Below, piece after piece: positions 53,816 to 63,161 of a DNA stretch of 64,000 nucleotides. The notes below the pieces were generated by a model. The model worked only from the letters and a program-made list of their open reading frames with translations. It had not been told where the DNA came from and searched no databases. The position numbers and the translations under genes were made by a program. Position 1 is the stretch's first letter. Each line of letters opens with the position of its first letter. Source of the stretch: Xanthomonas arboricola pv. guizotiae (GTDB lineage: Bacteria; Pseudomonadota; Gammaproteobacteria; Xanthomonadales; Xanthomonadaceae). The DNA is taken from NCBI RefSeq assembly GCF_002940205.1, contig NZ_MDSK01000015.1, positions 32,394-96,393 on the forward strand, given 5' to 3'.

Positions 53816-55903
53816 ATGCAACGCCTGCTTCTTGTTTCCAGCATGCTGCTCGCGCTGTCTGCCTGCAGCGACAACGCCGCGCCCACCACCGACAAGGCTG
53901 CCACGCCGGCCCCGGCCGCTGCGCAAGCACCCGCGGCGCCACCCGAACTGATCACCCGCGAGGCGCTGTTCGGCAACCCGGAACGGGCGAACGTGAGCAT
54001 CAGCCCGGACGGTAAATACCTCAGCTGGGTCGCGCCGCTGGAGGGCGTGCTCAATGTCTGGGTCGCCCCGGTGGATGCACCGGATCAGGCGCGCGCGATC
54101 ACCAAGGACAGCGCACGCGGCATCCGCAATTATTTCTGGACCTATCAACCCAACACGCTGCTGTACCTGCGCGACAACGGCGGCGACGAGGACTTCCATC
54201 TGTTCTCGGTGAATCTGAGCGATGGCAGCAGCAAGGACCTCACCCCGTTCAAGGAGACCAACGCCGAGGTGTATCGCGTCAGCGCGCAGCACCCCGAGTC
54301 GATCATGGTCGGCATGAACGACCGCGATCCCAAATGGCATGACCTGTATCGGGTGGACCTGGCCTCGGGCAAGCGCAGCCTGGTGCAGCAGAACACCGAC
54401 AGCCTGGCTTCCTATCTGCTCGACGGCAACTACCAGCTGCGCTACGCCACGCGCGCCACCGACGATGCCGGCAGAGAATTGCTGGTGCCGGACGGCAAGC
54501 GCTGGAAGAGCGTGGACCGCATCCCGTTCGAGGACGTCAGCAACACCTCGCCCGACGGACTGACCGACGACGGCAAGACGCTGTACATGCAGGATTCGCG
54601 CAATCGCGACACCGCGGCGCTGTATGCCATCGACACCGCCAGCAATGCGCGCACGCTGCTGTTCGAAAACCCGCGCACCGATGTCGGCGCCACCTTGGAC
54701 GACCCCAGGACCGGCGTGGTGCAGGCCGTGTCCACCGACTACTTGCGCGAGGAGTGGAAGGCGCTGGACACCAGCATTGCCGCCGACCTGCAGAAGCTCA
54801 AGTCGCTGGGCAGCGGCGATGCCAGCGTTGCCGCACGCACGCTCGACGATCGCATCTGGATCGTGGGGTATTCGGCGGCAGAGACGCCGCTGAGCTACTA
54901 CCGTTACGACCGTGCAGACGGCGGCAAGCTGACCAAATTGTTCTCCGCCCGCCCCGCGCTCGACGGCAAACCGCTGGTCCCGATGTGGCCGCAGGAACTG
55001 ACCGCGCGCGACGGCCTCAAGCTGGTCAGCTATCTCACCCTGCCCGCCGAGGCCGACGCCAATCACGATGGCAAGGCCGACAAGCCGGTGCCGCTGGTGC
55101 TGTTCGTGCATGGTGGCCCATGGGGGCGCGACAGCTACGGCTACGGGCCGTATGAGCAGTGGCTGGCCAATCGCGGCTATGCGGTGCTGGCGGTGAATTT
55201 CCGTGGCTCCACCGGCTTCGGCAAGGCCTTCACCAATGCCGGCAACGGCGAGTGGGCCGGCAAGATGCACGACGACCTGCTCGACGCCGTGCAATGGGCG
55301 GTCAAGCAAGGCGTGACCAGGCCCGAGGACGTGGCGATCATGGGCGGCAGCTACGGCGGCTACGCCACGCTGGTCGGCCTGACCTTTACCCCGGACGCGT
55401 TCAAGTGCGGGGTGGACATCGTCGGCCCGGCCAACCTCAACACCCTGCTCGGCACCGTGCCGCCGTACTGGGCCAGCTTCTACAAGCAGCTGACCAAACG
55501 CATCGGCGACCCGGCCACCGAGGCCGGCAAGCAGTGGCTGACCGAGCGCTCCCCGCTCAGCCATGTCGACAAGATCAGCAAGCCGCTACTGATCGGCCAG
55601 GGCGCCAACGACCCGCGCGTCAAACAGGCCGAGAGCGACCAGATCGTCAACGCGATGAAGGCCAAGAACATCCCGGTCACCTACGTGCTGTTCCCCGACG
55701 AAGGCCACGGCTTCCGCCGCCCGGAAAACAGCAAGGCCTTCAACGCGGTGACCGAGGGGTTCCTGGGCCAATGCCTGGGCGGCCGCGTACAACCGATCGG
55801 CGACGACCTGACAGGCTCCAGCATCACCGTGCCGGAAGGCGCCGACAAGGTGAACGGTCTGAGCGATGCGTTGAAGGCGCATACGCAGGCGATTCGGCGG
55901 TAA
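53816..55903 (+). CDS. S9-family prolyl oligopeptidase/dipeptidyl aminopeptidase, lipoprotein
   Basis: 695 residues. Lipoprotein signal with lipobox LSAC (MQRLLLVSSMLLALSACSDN). An N-terminal beta-propeller (~55-400) and a C-terminal peptidase domain: nucleophile in 'IMGGSYGGYATLVGLTF', Asp in 'LIGQGANDPRVKQAE' and His in 'FPDEGHGFRRPEN'. Oligopeptides are the likely substrate, at the periplasmic side of a membrane. Stand-alone gene. Confidence 0.92.
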   Translation: MQRLLLVSSMLLALSACSDNAAPTTDKAATPAPAAAQAPAAPPELITREALFGNPERANVSISPDGKYLSWVAPLEGVLNVWVAPVDAPDQARAITKDSARGIRNYFWTYQPNTLLYLRDNGGDEDFHLFSVNLSDGSSKDLTPFKETNAEVYRVSAQHPESIMVGMNDRDPKWHDLYRVDLASGKRSLVQQNTDSLASYLLDGNYQLRYATRATDDAGRELLVPDGKRWKSVDRIPFEDVSNTSPDGLTDDGKTLYMQDSRNRDTAALYAIDTASNARTLLFENPRTDVGATLDDPRTGVVQAVSTDYLREEWKALDTSIAADLQKLKSLGSGDASVAARTLDDRIWIVGYSAAETPLSYYRYDRADGGKLTKLFSARPALDGKPLVPMWPQELTARDGLKLVSYLTLPAEADANHDGKADKPVPLVLFVHGGPWGRDSYGYGPYEQWLANRGYAVLAVNFRGSTGFGKAFTNAGNGEWAGKMHDDLLDAVQWAVKQGVTRPEDVAIMGGSYGGYATLVGLTFTPDAFKCGVDIVGPANLNTLLGTVPPYWASFYKQLTKRIGDPATEAGKQWLTERSPLSHVDKISKPLLIGQGANDPRVKQAESDQIVNAMKAKNIPVTYVLFPDEGHGFRRPENSKAFNAVTEGFLGQCLGGRVQPIGDDLTGSSITVPEGADKVNGLSDALKAHTQAIRR

Positions 55904-56052
55904 CGCCATTGCGAAGTGATTGCTTTGGATCGACGTCAGCGCTCGCCTGCAACGACGAGTGCTGACGGTTGTAGCCAGGTTCTCCAACTAGCCGGCATGC
56001 CTGACTTCCCTCGCCAAGCGGTCCAGATCGAAAGATGTGTGATGGTCTCTCG

Positions 56053-57261
56053 CTAATGGGATCCGATGTCCTTGGCCGCCTCTGGATCACGACCAGCCGG
56101 CCACACTGCCCCGCCGGGATCCAGCTCGGTACTGTTCATTTCCTCGCCACGCCAACCGAATCCGCAGATGGCCAGTGGGCCGTCCTGCAGGCCGTCCAGG
56201 CCAAGCGCCTGTTCAATGTCCACCTCGTTGATCGCCGAGGTGACAAACGCTCCCAGCCCCAGGTCGGTTGCGCTCAGATAAAGTGTCTGCGCGATATGGC
56301 CGACATCCAGAATCATCGCGCGGTAGGCCTTGGCGTGGTTTCGATATTTCCAGAAGCTGCGTAAAAACCGCGGTACCAGGATCACCAGCACCGGCGCATC
56401 GGCAAACCAGTGCTGCCCGGACACGGCGCGACGCGCGAAGTCCACCAGCGGTTGCGATGGCGACTGCAATGGCTGCAAAGCATGATCGACAGGGCGATAG
56501 TGATAGAGACCGCTCGTCATTCCCTCGACACGCTGGACCAGCAAGTAGGTTTCGGTGGGATGGAGACTACCCCCCGACGGTACCGGCTTCTTCAAGAATG
56601 CGGTGTCGTGCCCCACTTCGATGCGCGCGCTTGCCATGACGCTGCGCTCAAGCATCTGGCCGAGCAAGATGGATGACAGTGGACGCTGCGTATCGAAATT
56701 GCGACAGGTGACGCGACGCGACAGTAGCTCATCGAACGTGCCCGGGGTTGACCGCGGCAAGGCAATGCGCGCTTCGACGCCACCCTCGCCTCGGTCTACG
56801 ATTTCTGCCGGGGGGGCGCCCAGTCGGCCGACCATGCCTTCTGCAGTTGTCAGGCCATGCGCTTCCATGGTGGCCACGCTGTCTTCGCCACTCCAGCGCG
56901 CGGATCGATGCCACAACGCAGCCAATGGCCACCAGCGCTGCTGCTGCACGCACTCGTCGTTGCGGCGGTGCTGAACATGTTGTGGTTGATCGCTGATCAC
57001 AAGACCTTGCTCGATCAAACGCTCCGCCCAGATTGGCAACGGATGCACCTGATCGATGGACTGCCAGCGCGAGGAACTCAACTCGCCCAGCCATTCGCGC
57101 TCTTCCTCTGAAACCTCCACCTCCGCCTCAAGATGAGGCGCGAGCGCCAGCCATCGTGTGCGGCGACGCAGGCCATCGCCCCCGGCAAGCAATCGTGCAA
57201 GATCAAACACCGAATCGTCGCGCAGTTCAAAAAACAACGTGGTACAGCGACGAATTTGCAT
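56053..57261 (-). CDS. Putative peptide maturation dehydrogenase, SagB/ThcOx-type nitroreductase
   Basis: 402 residues. The C-terminal ~230 residues are the SagB-like FMN nitroreductase: 'RRVTCRNFDTQRPLSSILLG', the diagnostic 'VPSGGSLHPTETYLLV', 'YRAMILDVGHIAQTLYLSAT' and 'LGLGAFVTSAINEVDIEQAL'. The N-terminal ~170 residues are unlike known cyclodehydratases and could bind the leader peptide. Proteins of this form (which NCBI labels putative peptide maturation dehydrogenase) co-occur with the NHLP-related precursor and the cyclase beside it. SagB enzymes oxidise azolines to azoles; no YcaO partner is seen here. The ribosome site is weak. Confidence 0.82.
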   Translation of the reverse strand: MQIRRCTTLFFELRDDSVFDLARLLAGGDGLRRRTRWLALAPHLEAEVEVSEEEREWLGELSSSRWQSIDQVHPLPIWAERLIEQGLVISDQPQHVQHRRNDECVQQQRWWPLAALWHRSARWSGEDSVATMEAHGLTTAEGMVGRLGAPPAEIVDRGEGGVEARIALPRSTPGTFDELLSRRVTCRNFDTQRPLSSILLGQMLERSVMASARIEVGHDTAFLKKPVPSGGSLHPTETYLLVQRVEGMTSGLYHYRPVDHALQPLQSPSQPLVDFARRAVSGQHWFADAPVLVILVPRFLRSFWKYRNHAKAYRAMILDVGHIAQTLYLSATDLGLGAFVTSAINEVDIEQALGLDGLQDGPLAICGFGWRGEEMNSTELDPGGAVWPAGRDPEAAKDIGSH

Positions 57262-57356
57262 AGGAACATCTCAAGGACGCATGAGTACGGTCGATATTGT
57301 GTCAGGTCCCACGTCATACGACAGCACACTCCCTCACCTTCCAGGCAAGCCACACC

Positions 57357-57695
57357 ATGACTGACGCAGCCAATGACACCCATCTCCCGTTTGATGCATC
57401 CACAGCCGACAAGCTGCTGGAGCTACTGGCAACCGATGACGACTTCCGCGACTGCTTTCAATGCAATCCGGCGCAGGCGCTTGCCCAGATCGGCGCACCT
57501 GGCGTGAGTGCGGACAACGCCGTCCCCGGCGTAGGAGAGGCTTATTACTGCATGAACACCAATCAGCTCGCATCCAAGCAGGACATTGCAGCGGCTCGCG
57601 CCGAGCTGCAGAGCTACCTGACCGAAAAGGCCAATCACACCGTGATCTTCGCCTTCGAATCGGACAGCATGCGTTCGACCCTGTTACGCAAGTAA
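57357..57695 (+). CDS. NHLP-related RiPP precursor peptide
   Basis: 112 residues. Residues ~10-47 ('LPFDASTADKLLELLATDDD', 'FRDCFQCNPAQALAQIGAPG') have the nitrile-hydratase-like leader pattern LLxxLxxDxxFRxxFxxxPxxALxxxG. The following part has 'AYYCMNTNQLASKQDIAAAR' and 'ELQSYLTEKANHTVIFAFES' before a basic end (...STLLRK). Family members are annotated as NHLP-related RiPP peptides in Xanthomonadales; core boundaries are unknown. The single Cys residues in the C-terminal half, plus Ser and Thr, are candidate modification sites. ATG at 57357 gives the typical start; a longer in-frame one exists at 57297. Its last 61 bases overlap the cyclase gene in antisense. Confidence 0.8.
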   Translation: MTDAANDTHLPFDASTADKLLELLATDDDFRDCFQCNPAQALAQIGAPGVSADNAVPGVGEAYYCMNTNQLASKQDIAAARAELQSYLTEKANHTVIFAFESDSMRSTLLRK

Positions 57696-60295
57696 GCAGG
57701 CAGACTCGGTAAAGGCCAGGCGCGCGCAAATGCCTGGGCCTGTTCGCGCGCCTCTTGGCTACGGCCGAGTGCGTGCAGCGATTCGGCCATCCAGAGCTGG
57801 GCCAGACGCGCATCGGCAACATTGAGCGGCTGCAGCGTTTGCGACGCATTTGCTTCGATGTAGGCACGCCCGCGATGGAGAAGCAGCCAACGTGCCTGTT
57901 GCAACGCTTCAGCGTGCCGACCGCTGTCGTGCAACAGCGTGTACAGCGTCACGCGTGTCTGGAAAAGATCATCGTCATTGACCGGCAGGCGCGCGATGGC
58001 TGCTGCACGGTCGCCCGACAGTGCCAGCTGCTGGGCTTCGACAATGGCGCGCAGGTCGGCAAGCACCGGTGTTTCATGCACAAGCGCCGGCTTGATCGCC
58101 GCAAGCGCGTGGGCGGTGAGGCTGTTATCGCCGCTCCGCTGCGCCTGGCTTGCGAGGATCAATACCATCGCGGCATTGTCCTGCAGGTTTACCGTTGCCG
58201 ACCCGTCGTCAATGACAGCCGACACCAGCCGATCGAACGTCGGCTTGAGCGCTGCCGCCGTCGCCAGGGACGGATCGACCAACGCATCGGTTGTCACCGC
58301 AATGACCGAGAACTGGCGACGGTTGAAATCGTCGCCTTGCTTGCTGCGCGTCAGACCTTGTGCGATCGCTGCACGTGCAGCGCTCCAGTCGGCCTGATCG
58401 ATTGCGATGCTGGTGCGATCGATCAATGGCACCACATCGTCGTTGGCATAGCCTTGCTCGATGATCCTGTCGAGCGTTTGCTTCGCTTCGACATGGCGGT
58501 TCAACACCGCAAGCGCGTTCGCCTGGCGCCGCAGCGGGCCGGCGCGATCGGCATCGCCGGGAATGGCAAAGCGCTGCAGTGCGGCTTCGGCCTTTCCCTG
58601 TGCCAGCAAAATGCGTCCAACCCGATCGGTCGCGATCGCGCGCAGCGGGTCCTGCGGAACATCGGCCGCCTGCGCGTACGGCAACGCGTCGGCAAAACGA
58701 TTGGCAACGAACAGGTGCCACGATGCGTTCGCGGTGCCGGCAAAATTGTCCGGGTAGAGCGAGGCCAGCGTTCTCCACAGCGTCAATGCCTTGTCGGGTG
58801 CTAGCAACTCGGCTGCCCATGCATCCATGTACAACTGGTCACGCTCAGGCAAACGCTGACGGAAACGAATTGCCTTCTCCAGGTACGGAAGCGCACCACG
58901 GCGATCGGAGATAGCCACCTTGATGCGTGCCGCCCCCAGATACGCGAGCGCAAATTCCGGATCGATGGCCACCGCGCGCTCGAACAGTTCCAGCCCTTCT
59001 TTCCATTGGCCTTTCGCCGTTGCGTCGACCCCCAGGGCATAAGCCCGCAGCGCATCCAGGCTGGACGTGGTCACGGCGGGTAACGGCACGGAATTCTTGT
59101 CGATCGAGGCCACCACCTCACCCAGCCCCTGCCTGAGCTTGCGGGTCACCTGATCCACCGAGGACAGTGCCGATGGCAAGCCATCGCCTTGCACAAACTC
59201 CGAGTAAACCGTGGTCTGGGTCCGCGGATCCACCAACTCAACGCTGAAACGAAGCTTGCCGCCAATCTCCGCGACAGTCGGCAGCAGCACAGCGCTTGCA
59301 CCATCGCGCAGCGCCACTTCCGAGGCGATCGCGCGATCGACGATTACGCGATCAGGATCGCGCTTCATCCGCGCCATGGTGTCGCGCACTTTCATCTCAC
59401 TCAGGACATTGACGTAGCGCGACTGCTCCAGGCTGATGCGCAGCGCCTGGTCGAGCGAACTGTCGAGCAACGTATTGCCGGTGAGATTACGTAGATCTCC
59501 GACCACCACCCACCCACGTTCGGAGAACGCAATGGCTGGCTCGGAACGGGTGAAAAACCACGCCGACACGCACACGGCGACGACCAAGGCAGTTTCCGCC
59601 AACAGTGCCGCCGGCCGCCGCCACAGCGGAATATCCCGCCATGCCTTCGGCGAATGTTTCGGCGCGCGCAATGGCGTGACATCGATCTCGCCGACCTCAT
59701 AGATCTCCATCGGCGTGGGCACGCCCTTGAAGCGCCAGCGGCCGTGGGATTTCCACAGGATGCGTTCGCCGCGTTCGCCCAGTTCGCGCGCAGCGCGGTG
59801 GGTCAACGACTCGGCCACCGCCGACAACAGGACCTGCCCGGGTCGCGCCATCGACATCAGGCGTGCGGCGGTGGGCTTGGCCAGGCCTTCGACTTCCAGC
59901 GGTTTGGCGCCGATGCTGACCGCTTCGTCGCTGTTGCGCCAGGTCAGCACTTCGCCAACGTGAAGGCCCTGCCGCGCGCACAGCGTGAGCGCGCGGGCAT
60001 CGCCCATCGCCTTGAGGCCACGGGCGTAATCCAGCGCAAAGCCCAGGCCGTCGATGGGGCGATCGAACAACAGCAACAATCCGTCCGAGCGGTCGATCAG
60101 CCGGCCACGCCATTGCTGCTGCAGTTTGACCACCAGCCGGTCGTGCTCGCGAAACAGCGCGGCAGCGGCGTTGTCACCGATGCGCTCGACCAGCGCGGTC
60201 GAGTCGCACAGGTCGGTCAGCAGCAAGGTGCGCAAGCGCGGCGCCTGGATCGCTTCCGACGACGCATCCTTGCGTGCGTGGGTACGGGCGCTCAT
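57635..60295 (-). CDS. Membrane class III nucleotidyl cyclase with TPR repeats (peptide modification system cyclase)
   Basis: 886 residues. N-terminal class III cyclase domain (~20-200): metal Asp D28 ('LLTDLCDSTALVERIG') and D71 ('DRSDGLLLLFDR'), 'ARQGLHVGEV', and 'KPTAARLMSMARPGQVLLS' with Arg145, but Pro where the usual transition-state Asn lies two residues before AAR. One transmembrane helix (~229-248), then a FlgO/TolB-like segment and many TPR-type repeats to the C-terminus. The homologue in X. campestris (XC_0250, from memory) makes cGMP and acts with the cNMP-GGDEF protein encoded next to it. NCBI models class this as a putative peptide modification system cyclase. Only three bases separate it from the upstream GGDEF gene. 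Confidence 0.85.
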   Translation of the reverse strand: MSARTHARKDASSEAIQAPRLRTLLLTDLCDSTALVERIGDNAAAALFREHDRLVVKLQQQWRGRLIDRSDGLLLLFDRPIDGLGFALDYARGLKAMGDARALTLCARQGLHVGEVLTWRNSDEAVSIGAKPLEVEGLAKPTAARLMSMARPGQVLLSAVAESLTHRAARELGERGERILWKSHGRWRFKGVPTPMEIYEVGEIDVTPLRAPKHSPKAWRDIPLWRRPAALLAETALVVAVCVSAWFFTRSEPAIAFSERGWVVVGDLRNLTGNTLLDSSLDQALRISLEQSRYVNVLSEMKVRDTMARMKRDPDRVIVDRAIASEVALRDGASAVLLPTVAEIGGKLRFSVELVDPRTQTTVYSEFVQGDGLPSALSSVDQVTRKLRQGLGEVVASIDKNSVPLPAVTTSSLDALRAYALGVDATAKGQWKEGLELFERAVAIDPEFALAYLGAARIKVAISDRRGALPYLEKAIRFRQRLPERDQLYMDAWAAELLAPDKALTLWRTLASLYPDNFAGTANASWHLFVANRFADALPYAQAADVPQDPLRAIATDRVGRILLAQGKAEAALQRFAIPGDADRAGPLRRQANALAVLNRHVEAKQTLDRIIEQGYANDDVVPLIDRTSIAIDQADWSAARAAIAQGLTRSKQGDDFNRRQFSVIAVTTDALVDPSLATAAALKPTFDRLVSAVIDDGSATVNLQDNAAMVLILASQAQRSGDNSLTAHALAAIKPALVHETPVLADLRAIVEAQQLALSGDRAAAIARLPVNDDDLFQTRVTLYTLLHDSGRHAEALQQARWLLLHRGRAYIEANASQTLQPLNVADARLAQLWMAESLHALGRSQEAREQAQAFARAWPLPSLPAYLRNRVERMLSDSKAKITV

Positions 60296-60298
60296 TGC

Positions 60299-61375
60299 TC
60301 AGCGATTGTCCGACGTGGCTGCGTTGCCGGGTGGCTGCGTGCTGCCCGACCCCAGCGCTTCATGCATGCACAGCACATTGCCGCCTTGCCGCTTTGCTTC
60401 GTACAGCGCGCTGTCGGCCAGCGTGTACCAATCGTTCCATGCCGCGTCGGCATCGATCATGCACAGGCCCAGGCTCACCGAGCAGCCCTGCTCACTCTGG
60501 CCGTTGCAAAGCCGCGCTTCCACTGCGCGCACGATGCATTCGCCGATGTGGTGCAGCAGCTCCCGGGTGCCCTGCGCGACCAGCACACAGAATTCGTCGC
60601 CGCCTAGCCGGCAGGCCAGATCACCGTCGGCGATCACCGAACGCAGCGCATGGGCGACGTTCTGCAGCACGCGGTCGCCAGCGAGATGGCCGAATTCGTC
60701 GTTGATGCGCTTGAAGCGGTCGCAATCGATCAGGATCAGGCCCACCCCGGGCACGTGGCCGGCGCGCCGGCATTCCTGCAGATGCAGGGCGAGCCCGCGG
60801 CGGTTGTGCAGGCCGGTGAGTTCGTCGGTGCGGCTGAGTTCTTCGGTGTGGTTGAGCTGGTGCGAGGTGACGTAGAGGTTGTCCAGCGCCGCTTCCAGGT
60901 CGTGGTTGCGCCGACGCAACTGGCGGATCAGCAACTGCTCGTTATTGACCACACGCACGATGGAGCGGCGCAGGAAATGCGCCACCATCGACGGGTCGTG
61001 ATCGACCAGGCGCTGGAAGTCCTCGTGCGCCAGTTCGATCAGACGGGTGTCGGTGGATGCAGTGGCGCCGGCACTGCGCGCATGGTCGCCGATCAACAGG
61101 CCAAGTTCGCCGAAGAATTCGCCCGGACCAAGGTGCTTGAGCATCAGGTCTTCGCCGAAATCCAGATCGATCTGGCCACTGACCACGATGAACATCTGCG
61201 TGCCCACTGCACCGCGCTCGAACAGCGCCTGGCCGGCAGCCAATTCGCGGGCGCGGCCGAAGCGGGCGAAAAACGCCAGCTCTTCGGCAGTCATCAGCGC
61301 ATGCAGCCCATCCGACAGCGTCTTTGCAACGCTCCCCGTCGGCTCCACTGCGCCGGCAGTGTTATGGCACGTCAT
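60299..61375 (-). CDS. Cyclic nucleotide-binding diguanylate cyclase (cNMP-GGDEF)
   Basis: 358 residues. A cNMP-binding domain (~30-140: 'ELAAGQALFERGAVGTQMFI', 'GEFFGELGLLIGDHARSAGA') is joined by a helix to a GGDEF domain with the signature RLGGDEF (GGDEF at 258-262). No RxxD inhibitory site lies before it. Its homologue XC_0249 in X. campestris binds cGMP, which activates c-di-GMP synthesis and so biofilm and virulence (established work, recalled from memory). Start at 61375 chosen for domain fit; an in-frame upstream ATG would add 27 residues. Operon with the cyclase gene. Confidence 0.92.
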   Translation of the reverse strand: MTCHNTAGAVEPTGSVAKTLSDGLHALMTAEELAFFARFGRARELAAGQALFERGAVGTQMFIVVSGQIDLDFGEDLMLKHLGPGEFFGELGLLIGDHARSAGATASTDTRLIELAHEDFQRLVDHDPSMVAHFLRRSIVRVVNNEQLLIRQLRRRNHDLEAALDNLYVTSHQLNHTEELSRTDELTGLHNRRGLALHLQECRRAGHVPGVGLILIDCDRFKRINDEFGHLAGDRVLQNVAHALRSVIADGDLACRLGGDEFCVLVAQGTRELLHHIGECIVRAVEARLCNGQSEQGCSVSLGLCMIDADAAWNDWYTLADSALYEAKRQGGNVLCMHEALGSGSTQPPGNAATSDNR

Positions 61376-61687: not shown

Positions 61688-62983
61688 TTACGCGGCCTTT
61701 TCGCCGTGAAACTGCTCTTCCTCGGTCGAGCCACGCAGCGCGGTGGTGGACGATTGGCCCTGCTGGATCGCCTGCGTCACCGCGTCGAAATAGCCGGTGC
61801 CCACCTCGCGCTGATGCTTGACCGCGGTAAAGCCCATCTCGGCCGCCGCGAACTCGGCCTGCTGCAGCTCGACGAAGGCGCTCATCTGGCGACGCGCGTA
61901 GCCATGCGCCAGGTTGAACATGCCGTAGTTCAGGGCATGGAAGCCGGCCAGGGTGATGAACTGGAATTTGTAGCCGTAGCTCGCCAGCTCGGCCTGGAAT
62001 CTGGCGATGGTGGCGTCGTCCAGGTTCTTCTTCCAGTTGAAGCTCGGCGAGCAGTTGTAGGCCAGCAACTTGCCGGGGAATCTGGCATGGATGGCTTGTG
62101 CGAAGGCGCGCGCAAACTCCAGATCCGGCTTACCGGTCTCGCACCAGATCAGATCCGCGTACGGCGCATAGGCCAGACCGCGGCTGATCGCCTGATCCAG
62201 CCCGTTGCGGGTCTTGAAGAAGCCTTCGACGGTGCGCTGCCCGGTGGTGAACGGCTGGTCGTTGGCATCCACATCGCTGGTGATCAGATCGGCCGCCTCG
62301 GCATCGGTGCGCGCGATCAGCAGCGTGGGCACGCCCAGCACATCGGCCGCCAGACGTGCGGCGTTCAACTTTTCGATCGCCTCGCGGGTGGGCACCAGCA
62401 CCTTGCCGCCCATGTGGCCGCATTTCTTCACCGATGCCAGCTGATCCTCGAAGTGCACGCCGGCCGCGCCGGCCTCGATCATCGCCTTCATCAGCTCGAA
62501 GGCGTTGAGTACGCCGCCAAAGCCGGCTTCGGCATCGGCCACGATCGGCTGCAGGAAGTCGATGTCGTCGTTGCCTTCGGCGTGATGCAGTTGATCGGCA
62601 CGCAACAAGGTGTTGTTGATGCGCTTGACCACCGCCGGCACCGAGTCGGCCGGATACAGCGACTGGTCCGGATACATCTGCCCGGCCAGGTTCGCATCGG
62701 CGGCGACCTGCCAGCCGGACAGGTAGATCGCCTTCAACCCGGCCTTGACCTGCTGCATCGCCTGGTTGCCGGTCAACGCGCCCAGCGCATTGACGAACGG
62801 CGTGGCGTGCAACGCGTTCCACAACTTGTCCGCGCCCAGCCGCGCCAGCGAATGCTCGACATGCACGGTGCCGCGCAAGCGCACCACGTCGGCGGCGGTG
62901 TAGTTGCGGGTGATGCCAGCCCAGCGCGGGTTGCTGGCCCAGTCTTGCTGGATCTGTTCGGCGGTCTGCAGTGTGCTGCTCAT
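61688..62983 (-). CDS. aceA: Isocitrate lyase
   Basis: 431 residues. The catalytic Cys188 lies in '[17 protein letters not shown]'; further motifs '[20 protein letters not shown]', '[16 protein letters not shown]' and '[15 protein letters not shown]' are as in AceA. It splits isocitrate into succinate and glyoxylate. AGGAGAACGCACC precedes the start. It follows aceB on the same strand. Glyoxylate from this reaction could also supply HpxJ. Confidence 0.97.
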
Positions 62984-63161
62984 GGTGCGTTCTCCTGGCA
63001 GGGATACGACGGATGCAACGAGGAAGGAAGGGGCGCATTGATACGCGCCGGGCATGGCAAGGCCGTCGTTGCGCGTATGGGCGCAACCGGCGGTGTGGTG
63101 CATGACGTGGATGGATTGCAGCGACAGCGCGCGTGCGCTGGCGTGTCGCTGCAGCATTGGC

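Follow-up and report, generated by a model that had tools for sequence, protein, structure and literature searches.

Pherotype-type peptide signalling is known mainly from Gram-positive bacteria. In the ComQXPA system, the modifier, the peptide, and the sensor half vary, with the output half being conserved. As described for Bacillus subtilis in the available part of PMC4408185, this system combines a modifying enzyme, a pre-peptide, and a membrane receptor, and forms distinct communication groups. A second point of reference is the XC_0250/XC_0249 pathway of Xanthomonas campestris, in which the isolated cyclase domain of XC_0250 makes cyclic guanosine monophosphate (cGMP), and XC_0249 binds cGMP tightly and synthesizes cyclic dimeric guanosine monophosphate (c-di-GMP) under stimulation by cGMP, with phenotypes in biofilm formation and virulence (PMC3770947, available part). 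The same text names no input signal for the pathway and calls the tetratricopeptide repeat (TPR) region of XC_0250 uncharacterised; its main text, as far as available, mentions no operon, neighbour, XC_0251, or membrane, and its Figure 1A gives the genomic context, so neighbours may be drawn there (PMC3770947). An orthologous gene pair is found in a 64,000-nucleotide stretch of Xanthomonas arboricola pv. guizotiae DNA (contig NZ_MDSK01000015.1 of assembly GCF_002940205.1; hereafter, the window), next to genes for a SagB-type dehydrogenase and a nitrile hydratase leader peptide (NHLP)-type precursor. What is new here is the allelic nature of this locus, together with the joint inheritance of the C-terminal core of the precursor and the TPR sensor of the cyclase. 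On this basis, we consider it rather probable that the locus encodes a pheromone-type ligand–receptor system, in which a transmembrane guanylate cyclase senses a SagB-tailored peptide, with cGMP and then c-di-GMP as the result.

Window proteins were scored against NCBIfam and Pfam, with NCBIfam matches judged by the curated cut-offs of each family. The SagB-type peptide maturation dehydrogenase (TIGR04511; 56053-57261, reverse strand; 402 residues) scored 565 bits against a cut-off of 240, the NHLP-related precursor peptide (TIGR04509; 57357-57695, forward strand; 112 residues) 112 bits against 34, and the guanylate cyclase orthologous to XC_0250 (TIGR04510; 57635-60295, reverse strand; 886 residues) 1196 bits against 400. 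The fourth protein, a cyclic nucleotide monophosphate (cNMP)-binding GGDEF diguanylate cyclase orthologous to XC_0249 (60299-61375, reverse strand; 358 residues), matched the Pfam families cNMP_binding (69 bits) and GGDEF (131 bits). These scores bear out an earlier, sequence-only reading of this DNA, which had placed the four genes at these positions and fitted the first three to TIGRFAM-type models for peptide modification. That reading was also right in equating the last two genes with XC_0250 and XC_0249. All 13 published residues that were checked are kept at the same positions in the window proteins—D41, D71, L73, A150, L157, and A161 in the cyclase and F73, E90, L91, H98, V142, N145, and E146 in the cNMP-GGDEF protein—and the length of the cyclase equals the 886 residues published for XC_0250 (PMC3770947, available part). 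In addition, the cNMP domain shows 94.6% identity over 129 residues to PDB entry 5h5o, which we infer to be XC_0249. The window cyclase matches no Pfam cyclase domain at E 0.01, and PF00211 was matched in 13 of its 46 aligned relatives. The term "operon," as used in the sequence-only reading, proved wrong for the precursor, the gene of which lies on the strand opposite sagB and the cyclase gene, divergent from the former and convergent with the latter, with the 3′ ends of precursor and cyclase overlapping by 61 bp (57635-57695).

In the Xanthomonas loci, the cassette is placed between an isocitrate lyase gene and a peptidase gene. In the window, these conserved flanks are at 61688-63157 (reverse strand) and 53816-55903 (forward strand), and they are probably aceA and an S9-type peptidase gene, "dpp." Across 28 Xanthomonas genomes (the 29 positive ones minus G028, in which the cassette is in pieces; 26 rows for sagB and 22 for dpp), allele types were defined by clustering at 65% identity over the cyclase sensor half, taken from residue 259 onward. 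A 3-4-kb block comprising the sensor half, the precursor, and sagB was found to occur in six types, represented by 15, 4, 6, 1, 1, and 1 genomes. Median identities within and between types were 79.7 and 36.4% for the sensor half (between-type range 25-56%) and 81.3 and 46.0% for SagB (31-66%); the corresponding values were 93.8 and 92.9% for the cyclase domain (80-100%), 91.8 and 90.5% for the GGDEF protein (80-99%), 90.6 and 90.3% for isocitrate lyase (86-98%), and 91.1 and 90.1% for dpp (79-99.6%). The two classes of SagB identity do not overlap (minimum of 73.1% within and maximum of 66.3% between types) and SagB therefore sorts with the sensor in these 26 rows, three of the types being single-genome ones. 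The full-length cyclase has 883-886 residues in type 1 and 827-843 in the remaining types.

The most extreme pair, G034 and G015, is nearly identical in dpp (99.6%), GGDEF (99.4%), and the cyclase domain (100%), with isocitrate lyase at 91.3%, the sensor half at 28.3%, and SagB at 32.6%. In 150-base windows, the DNA identity of this pair was 97-100% directly flanking the block on both sides, 25-60% within it, and 91-100% farther out, in isocitrate lyase. The cyclase-side edge of the block was located at about residue 180-265 in five pairs, sliding identity dropping by about residue 210-240, and the far edge between the ends of sagB and dpp in four of the five, the fifth pair having sagB split there. 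In the window itself, the allelic block (55903-59279, no strand assigned) has no DNA alignment in G001, where it is replaced by DNA of almost equal length, and it is the only unaligned stretch of more than 1 kb in the 64-kb window in that comparison (one strand searched); against G014, the block is likewise unaligned, as is 399-22319 (one strand searched). Rapid divergence in place was rejected on the strength of G034/G015, in which dpp, GGDEF, and the cyclase domain are near-identical and the sensor half is at 28%, and is also disfavoured by the lack of any further such stretch against G001. On a tree of four adjoining conserved proteins, which is not a species tree and in which dpp is missing from 6 rows, allele type required 12 changes, compared with a mean of 12.2 after shuffling, and 116 of 200 shuffles were equally low; a single clade was rejected both for the type 1 genomes (p 2e-86) and for those of type 2 (p 3e-4). 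The locus is thus shown to be allelic, with sensor, precursor, and sagB swapped by replacement and the types scattered as if shuffled.

The precursor, present in all 28 of these genomes, was divided by borders of our own choosing into a leader (about residues 14-47), a second helix (about 70-88), with a linker treated separately, and a C-terminal core (about 89-112). Mean identities within and between types were 84 and 47% for the leader, 65 and 12% for the linker, 84 and 45% for the second helix, and 86 and 19% for the C-terminus. The conserved leader and variable core expected of a ribosomally synthesized and post-translationally modified peptide (RiPP) are therefore seen in the comparison between types (47% vs 19%), the linker being even more variable. 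The best-kept part of the precursor is its C-terminus in type 2 (96%) and type 3 (91%), with the leader at 83%. Three precursors accompany a single cyclase at each of the loci L067, L069, and L072, and might represent several signals for one receptor. Additional precursor-like frames were seen downstream of sagB at L082:11210-11712, and two complete cyclases in tandem at L156 (G364), both of which would be expected from the entry of new alleles next to existing ones.

Larger block replacements recur in Stenotrophomonas, as in the pair L059/L089, in which identities are 99.3% for isocitrate lyase, 98.0% for GGDEF, 71% for the cyclase domain, 29% for the sensor, and 50% for SagB. A narrower exchange was found among 10 genomes of the S. 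maltophilia complex, forming an alpha group (L046, L052, and L059) and a beta group (L048, L049, L050, L051, L095, L149, and L150); L151 and L152, being second copies of L051 and L050, were left out, and more remote Stenotrophomonas loci such as L153 and L154 fall into neither group. The two groups differ by 200 fixed-difference columns over 6.6 kb, 195 of which fall within 1.24 kb (L046 7262-8501), that is, from codon 458 of the cyclase to its end plus the final 33 codons of the precursor; the others are 2 outside the tract (5349 and 9710) and 3 at L046 gaps. The TPR part shows 61-63% identity between the groups and 91-97% within them, and the split is not followed by the leader, SagB (94-98%), cyclase residues 200-440 (96-100%), or GGDEF. 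An alpha clade is rejected in the flanks (approximately unbiased test, p 6e-14), where alpha L052 is sister to beta L051; in the tract tree, alpha and beta separate with full support.

The same association was seen in Mantel comparisons over 54 hand-picked loci of several genera, mostly with a single clear precursor. Core distance correlated with TPR distance at r 0.90 (partial r 0.52, equalled or exceeded in 0 of 999 permutations), with SagB distance at r 0.83 (partial r 0.20; 0/999), and with leader distance at r 0.88 (partial r 0.19; 0/999); partial r was 0.01 for the cyclase domain (394/999) and −0.28 for the middle part of the sensor. These permutations leave shared ancestry in place. Taken with the tract, they show that core and TPR sensor are inherited together. 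The sensor could instead be diversifying in response to some environmental ligand unrelated to the peptide, with the precursor's 3′ end hitchhiking on recombination tracts, in keeping with the adjacent or overlapping coding ends of core and TPR in the window and with an S. maltophilia tract covering both. This explanation appears improbable, as that tract stops inside the precursor near the leader–core border, and as core and TPR stay together in 10 of 10 S. maltophilia-complex genomes, with sagB separating in Stenotrophomonas, and equally across the three multi-genome Xanthomonas types (25 genomes). The co-occurrence of the genes across genomes, and the coupling of the same peptide system to a different receptor in Oxalobacteraceae, both described below, also argue against it.

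Co-occurrence was assessed in 61 genomes, namely the window's own and 60 relatives, with cyclase and sagB counted above their cut-offs and the GGDEF partner at E<=1e-40. The cyclase was found in 34 genomes and the GGDEF partner in the identical 34; the precursor was found in these 34 plus G007, as a decayed remnant, and sagB in 33 of the 34, the exception being G033, which has a truncated gene. The co-occurrence of these families, proposed as a check in the sequence-only reading, is thereby confirmed; the genes are therefore not chance neighbours, and chance neighbourhood was rejected as an explanation. That the sagB–precursor pair is an unrelated RiPP cluster merely lying beside the cGMP pair might be argued from the separate families with models of their own and from the precursor lying on the other strand; given the shared set of 34 among the 61 genomes, the gene order kept in loci of several families, and the exchange as one block, this is very improbable. 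A SagB-based scan gave 115 places, the best 80 of which were taken as named loci. By a precursor model built iteratively on the study loci, these 80 among them, the precursor was matched in 79; the cyclase was matched in 70 and cNMP-GGDEF (at least 200 bits) in 60. Nine of the 10 loci without a cyclase are from Oxalobacteraceae, and the tenth (L087) stops at a contig edge. Among five system-negative Xanthomonas genomes, the dpp flank was found in two: G012 has no cassette gene in the 7 kb beyond it, and the G004 contig stops inside dpp. Broken Xanthomonas cassettes were also seen: L134 (G028) is in many pieces, L141 (G007) shows near-complete loss, L136/L137 (G030) has sagB split into pieces 13.5 kb apart, and L139 (G033) has a deletion from sagB into dpp, with precursor and cyclase remaining in the last two.

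The cyclase is predicted to be divided by a single membrane segment (residues 230-248; 59552-59608, reverse strand), with basic residues on its N-terminal side, into a cytoplasmic cyclase domain (about residues 1-210; 59666-60295, reverse strand), conserved between allele types, and a periplasmic sensor half with TPRs (residues 259-886; 57638-59521, reverse strand), which differs between them. This segment had been overlooked in the sequence-only reading. In each of the 102 cyclase rows with at least 780 residues (90 of them distinct), the hydropathy peak begins at residue 216-245 and more Lys and Arg precede it than follow it. The TPR_19 model was matched in 42 of the 46 aligned relatives and the LpoB model in 2. 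D28, D41, D71, and R145 are invariant in all 46, and the 43-residue spacing of D28 and D71 presumably suits the usual class III pair better than that of D41 and D71. In the published description, as far as available, D41 and D71 are the metal aspartates and the domain starts at residue 32 (PMC3770947). Judged by eye, Pro141 occupies the usual position of the transition-state Asn in 44 of the 46 cyclases; the GGDEF domain encoded at 60299-61375 seemingly lacks the RxxD inhibitory site, ADGD being read there by eye. At L057:11083-13008, directly after sagB, a 641-residue open frame with a membrane segment and a sensor half lacks the cyclase domain, which suggests an orphan receptor or a leftover of exchange.

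A second receptor type is suggested by the Oxalobacteraceae. Eight of their nine loci are long enough to be compared (seven are named Duganella; L098 stops just after sagB), and in all eight, precursor and sagB are side by side, the former next to the gene for a protein of about 1,800 residues that tblastn matched at every one of these loci; a GGDEF gene is present in the available stretch in 6. The two such proteins scanned by Pfam contain Reg_prop, Y_Y_Y, HisKA, HATPase_c, Response_reg, and Hpt, which suggests that a beta-propeller hybrid kinase serves there as the receptor for the sagB–precursor pair.

The SagB protein matches the CyaGox, BmdC, and McbC structures. Its nitroreductase-fold domain spans residues 181-370 and includes a Lys305-Tyr306 pair, kept in all 48 aligned SagB proteins, that we take to be the one with a role in azoline dehydrogenases. 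In Pfam scans of the 48 at E 0.5, the nitroreductase domain was matched in every one, with otherwise weak matches in one or two each. The sequence-only reading had seen no YcaO partner, and this extends to the whole genome, in which no YcaO cyclodehydratase was matched at E 0.001. Azole formation with a YcaO partner was accordingly rejected, and no azoline substrate is therefore expected for SagB. Because some precursors (those of Oxalobacteraceae, in the aligned part) have no Cys, our guess is that SagB catalyzes alpha,beta-dehydrogenation or another oxidation.

The proposed mechanism would then run as follows. An NHLP-type precursor would consist of a leader followed by a core of about 20-33 C-terminal residues, which the SagB-type dehydrogenase would oxidise without YcaO; the mature peptide would reach the periplasm and bind the TPR sensor half of the transmembrane cyclase, setting cGMP synthesis; and cGMP would act on c-di-GMP via the cNMP-GGDEF protein. 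Core–sensor binding, peptide modification, export, and the sign of the cyclase response are parts that we infer. In the sequence-only reading, the peptide had been proposed as a possible signal for the cyclase or a possible output of it. A role as signal has strong comparative support, from the co-variation of core and TPR and from the co-occurrence; for a role as output no evidence was met, and no search was aimed at it.

Several observations weigh against this pheromone-type mechanism. No exporter was seen at the locus. A C39 peptidase was unmatched in 7 of 34 positive genomes, the match in G029 was below the cut-off, and the copy in the window's own genome adjoins its own candidate substrates; a general C39-type exporter was rejected on these grounds. 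The latter copy, at L148:4777-10883 (contig C53), comprises an HlyD-like protein and a C39 ABC transporter, with two adjoining frames that begin almost identically (MREL[TN]..EELFLVAGAAAAADV), and is probably a separate microcin-like export system. Nor does sagB vary with the core between S. maltophilia alpha and beta, and in two of the 28 Xanthomonas genomes (G030 and G033) sagB is broken with precursor and cyclase intact, which may mean either that SagB is dispensable or that these loci are in decay. Core and leader are equally well kept in type 1 (85% each), and inspection by eye revealed no residue common to all cores as a candidate for modification. SagB and the leader also exceeded all 999 Mantel permutations, with a plain r for the leader (0.88) near that for TPR (0.90); since the convergent gene order makes the 3′ ends of core and TPR neighbours, linkage alone could keep them together. 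On the output side, 20 of the 80 named loci have no GGDEF match of 200 bits (some stop at contig edges, and nine are from Oxalobacteraceae), and the cNMP-GGDEF gene is on a separate contig in G048 and G057. Finally, the cyclase domain is active on its own and suffices to restore biofilm formation (PMC3770947, available part), and activation through the sensor is therefore not established.

The missing exporter bears on another explanation, in which the precursor is not exported and acts within the cell as a small binding partner of the cyclase's TPR half, perhaps after redox modification by SagB, the co-variation then reflecting a protein–protein interface. The positive genomes without a C39 match suit this, as does the absence of a noticeable signal peptide in the precursor, read by eye. 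The predicted positive-inside membrane segment, seen in every cyclase row surveyed, places the TPR half outside the cytoplasm, however, and the neighbouring receptor in Oxalobacteraceae has a beta-propeller/Y_Y_Y input, such domains being of a periplasmic type. An intracellular partner is thus judged unlikely, yet it is the strongest of the competing explanations. An antimicrobial or kin-recognition peptide, with the polymorphic sensor detecting self or competitors and raising cGMP and c-di-GMP (competition sensing), would also fit allelic blocks exchanged by recombination, which suit toxin/immunity systems as well, and the NHLP and SagB families are best known from bacteriocin-type RiPPs. It is nevertheless doubtful, on a par with hitchhiking by linkage: the window's block shows no immunity gene, transporter, or protease, the co-varying partner is a signalling receptor, and the published output, as far as available, is regulation of biofilm formation and virulence (PMC3770947).

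If the pheromone-type mechanism is correct, it provides the XC_0250 cGMP pathway with its missing input, extends pherotype-type peptide signalling to Gram-negative bacteria and to cyclic-nucleotide receptors, gives a role to SagB-type dehydrogenases operating without YcaO, and, to our knowledge, reveals the first bacterial nucleotide cyclase acting as a peptide-pheromone receptor. The allele structure offers a candidate ligand (the C-terminus of the precursor), a receptor region (the TPR half), and natural cognate and non-cognate pairs, and the question of the input is therefore directly testable. Whether these loci form a new family of Gram-negative peptide communication—with a YcaO-free, SagB-tailored peptide, interchangeable periplasmic receptors (TPR cyclase in Xanthomonadales and beta-propeller kinase in Oxalobacteraceae), and pherotypes exchanged by recombination—is in our judgement evenly balanced.

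With respect to known systems, the window genes are by score members of the "putative peptide modification system" of TIGR04509, TIGR04510, and TIGR04511, model names that refer to peptide modification and give the cyclase no receptor role. Among the open-access papers searched, none was found with these accessions or with two of the names, and none on NHLP RiPPs or nitrile hydratase leader peptides in Xanthomonas; among the matches listed, no title or abstract start describes a link between a peptide and the cGMP pathway. SagB shares the nitroreductase fold and the Lys-Tyr pair with the azoline dehydrogenases McbC and CyaGox of its family, here without YcaO. The TPR sensor resembles the RRNPP receptors of Gram-positive bacteria (Rap, PlcR, and ComR), which bind imported signalling peptides by cytosolic TPR-type domains; in the present case, the TPR half is predicted to lie in the periplasm, with a transmembrane connection to a cyclase. 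Within Xanthomonas, the raxX-raxSTAB locus has a sulfated peptide and its own exporter genes, and no receptor half is known to be exchanged with it. It is likewise a modified-peptide locus whose variation and inheritance have been studied (PMC6637879, available part). In design, the locus is like ComQXPA, as peptide, modifier, and sensor half are here polymorphic as a block with the output half conserved, except that the S. maltophilia alpha/beta block excludes the modifier. In place of the histidine kinase receptor, the locus has a class III guanylate cyclase, a kinase occurring solely in the Oxalobacteraceae version; it further differs from ComQXPA in having a nitroreductase-fold dehydrogenase for the prenyltransferase, an NHLP-type leader, and Gram-negative hosts, and in being known from sequences.

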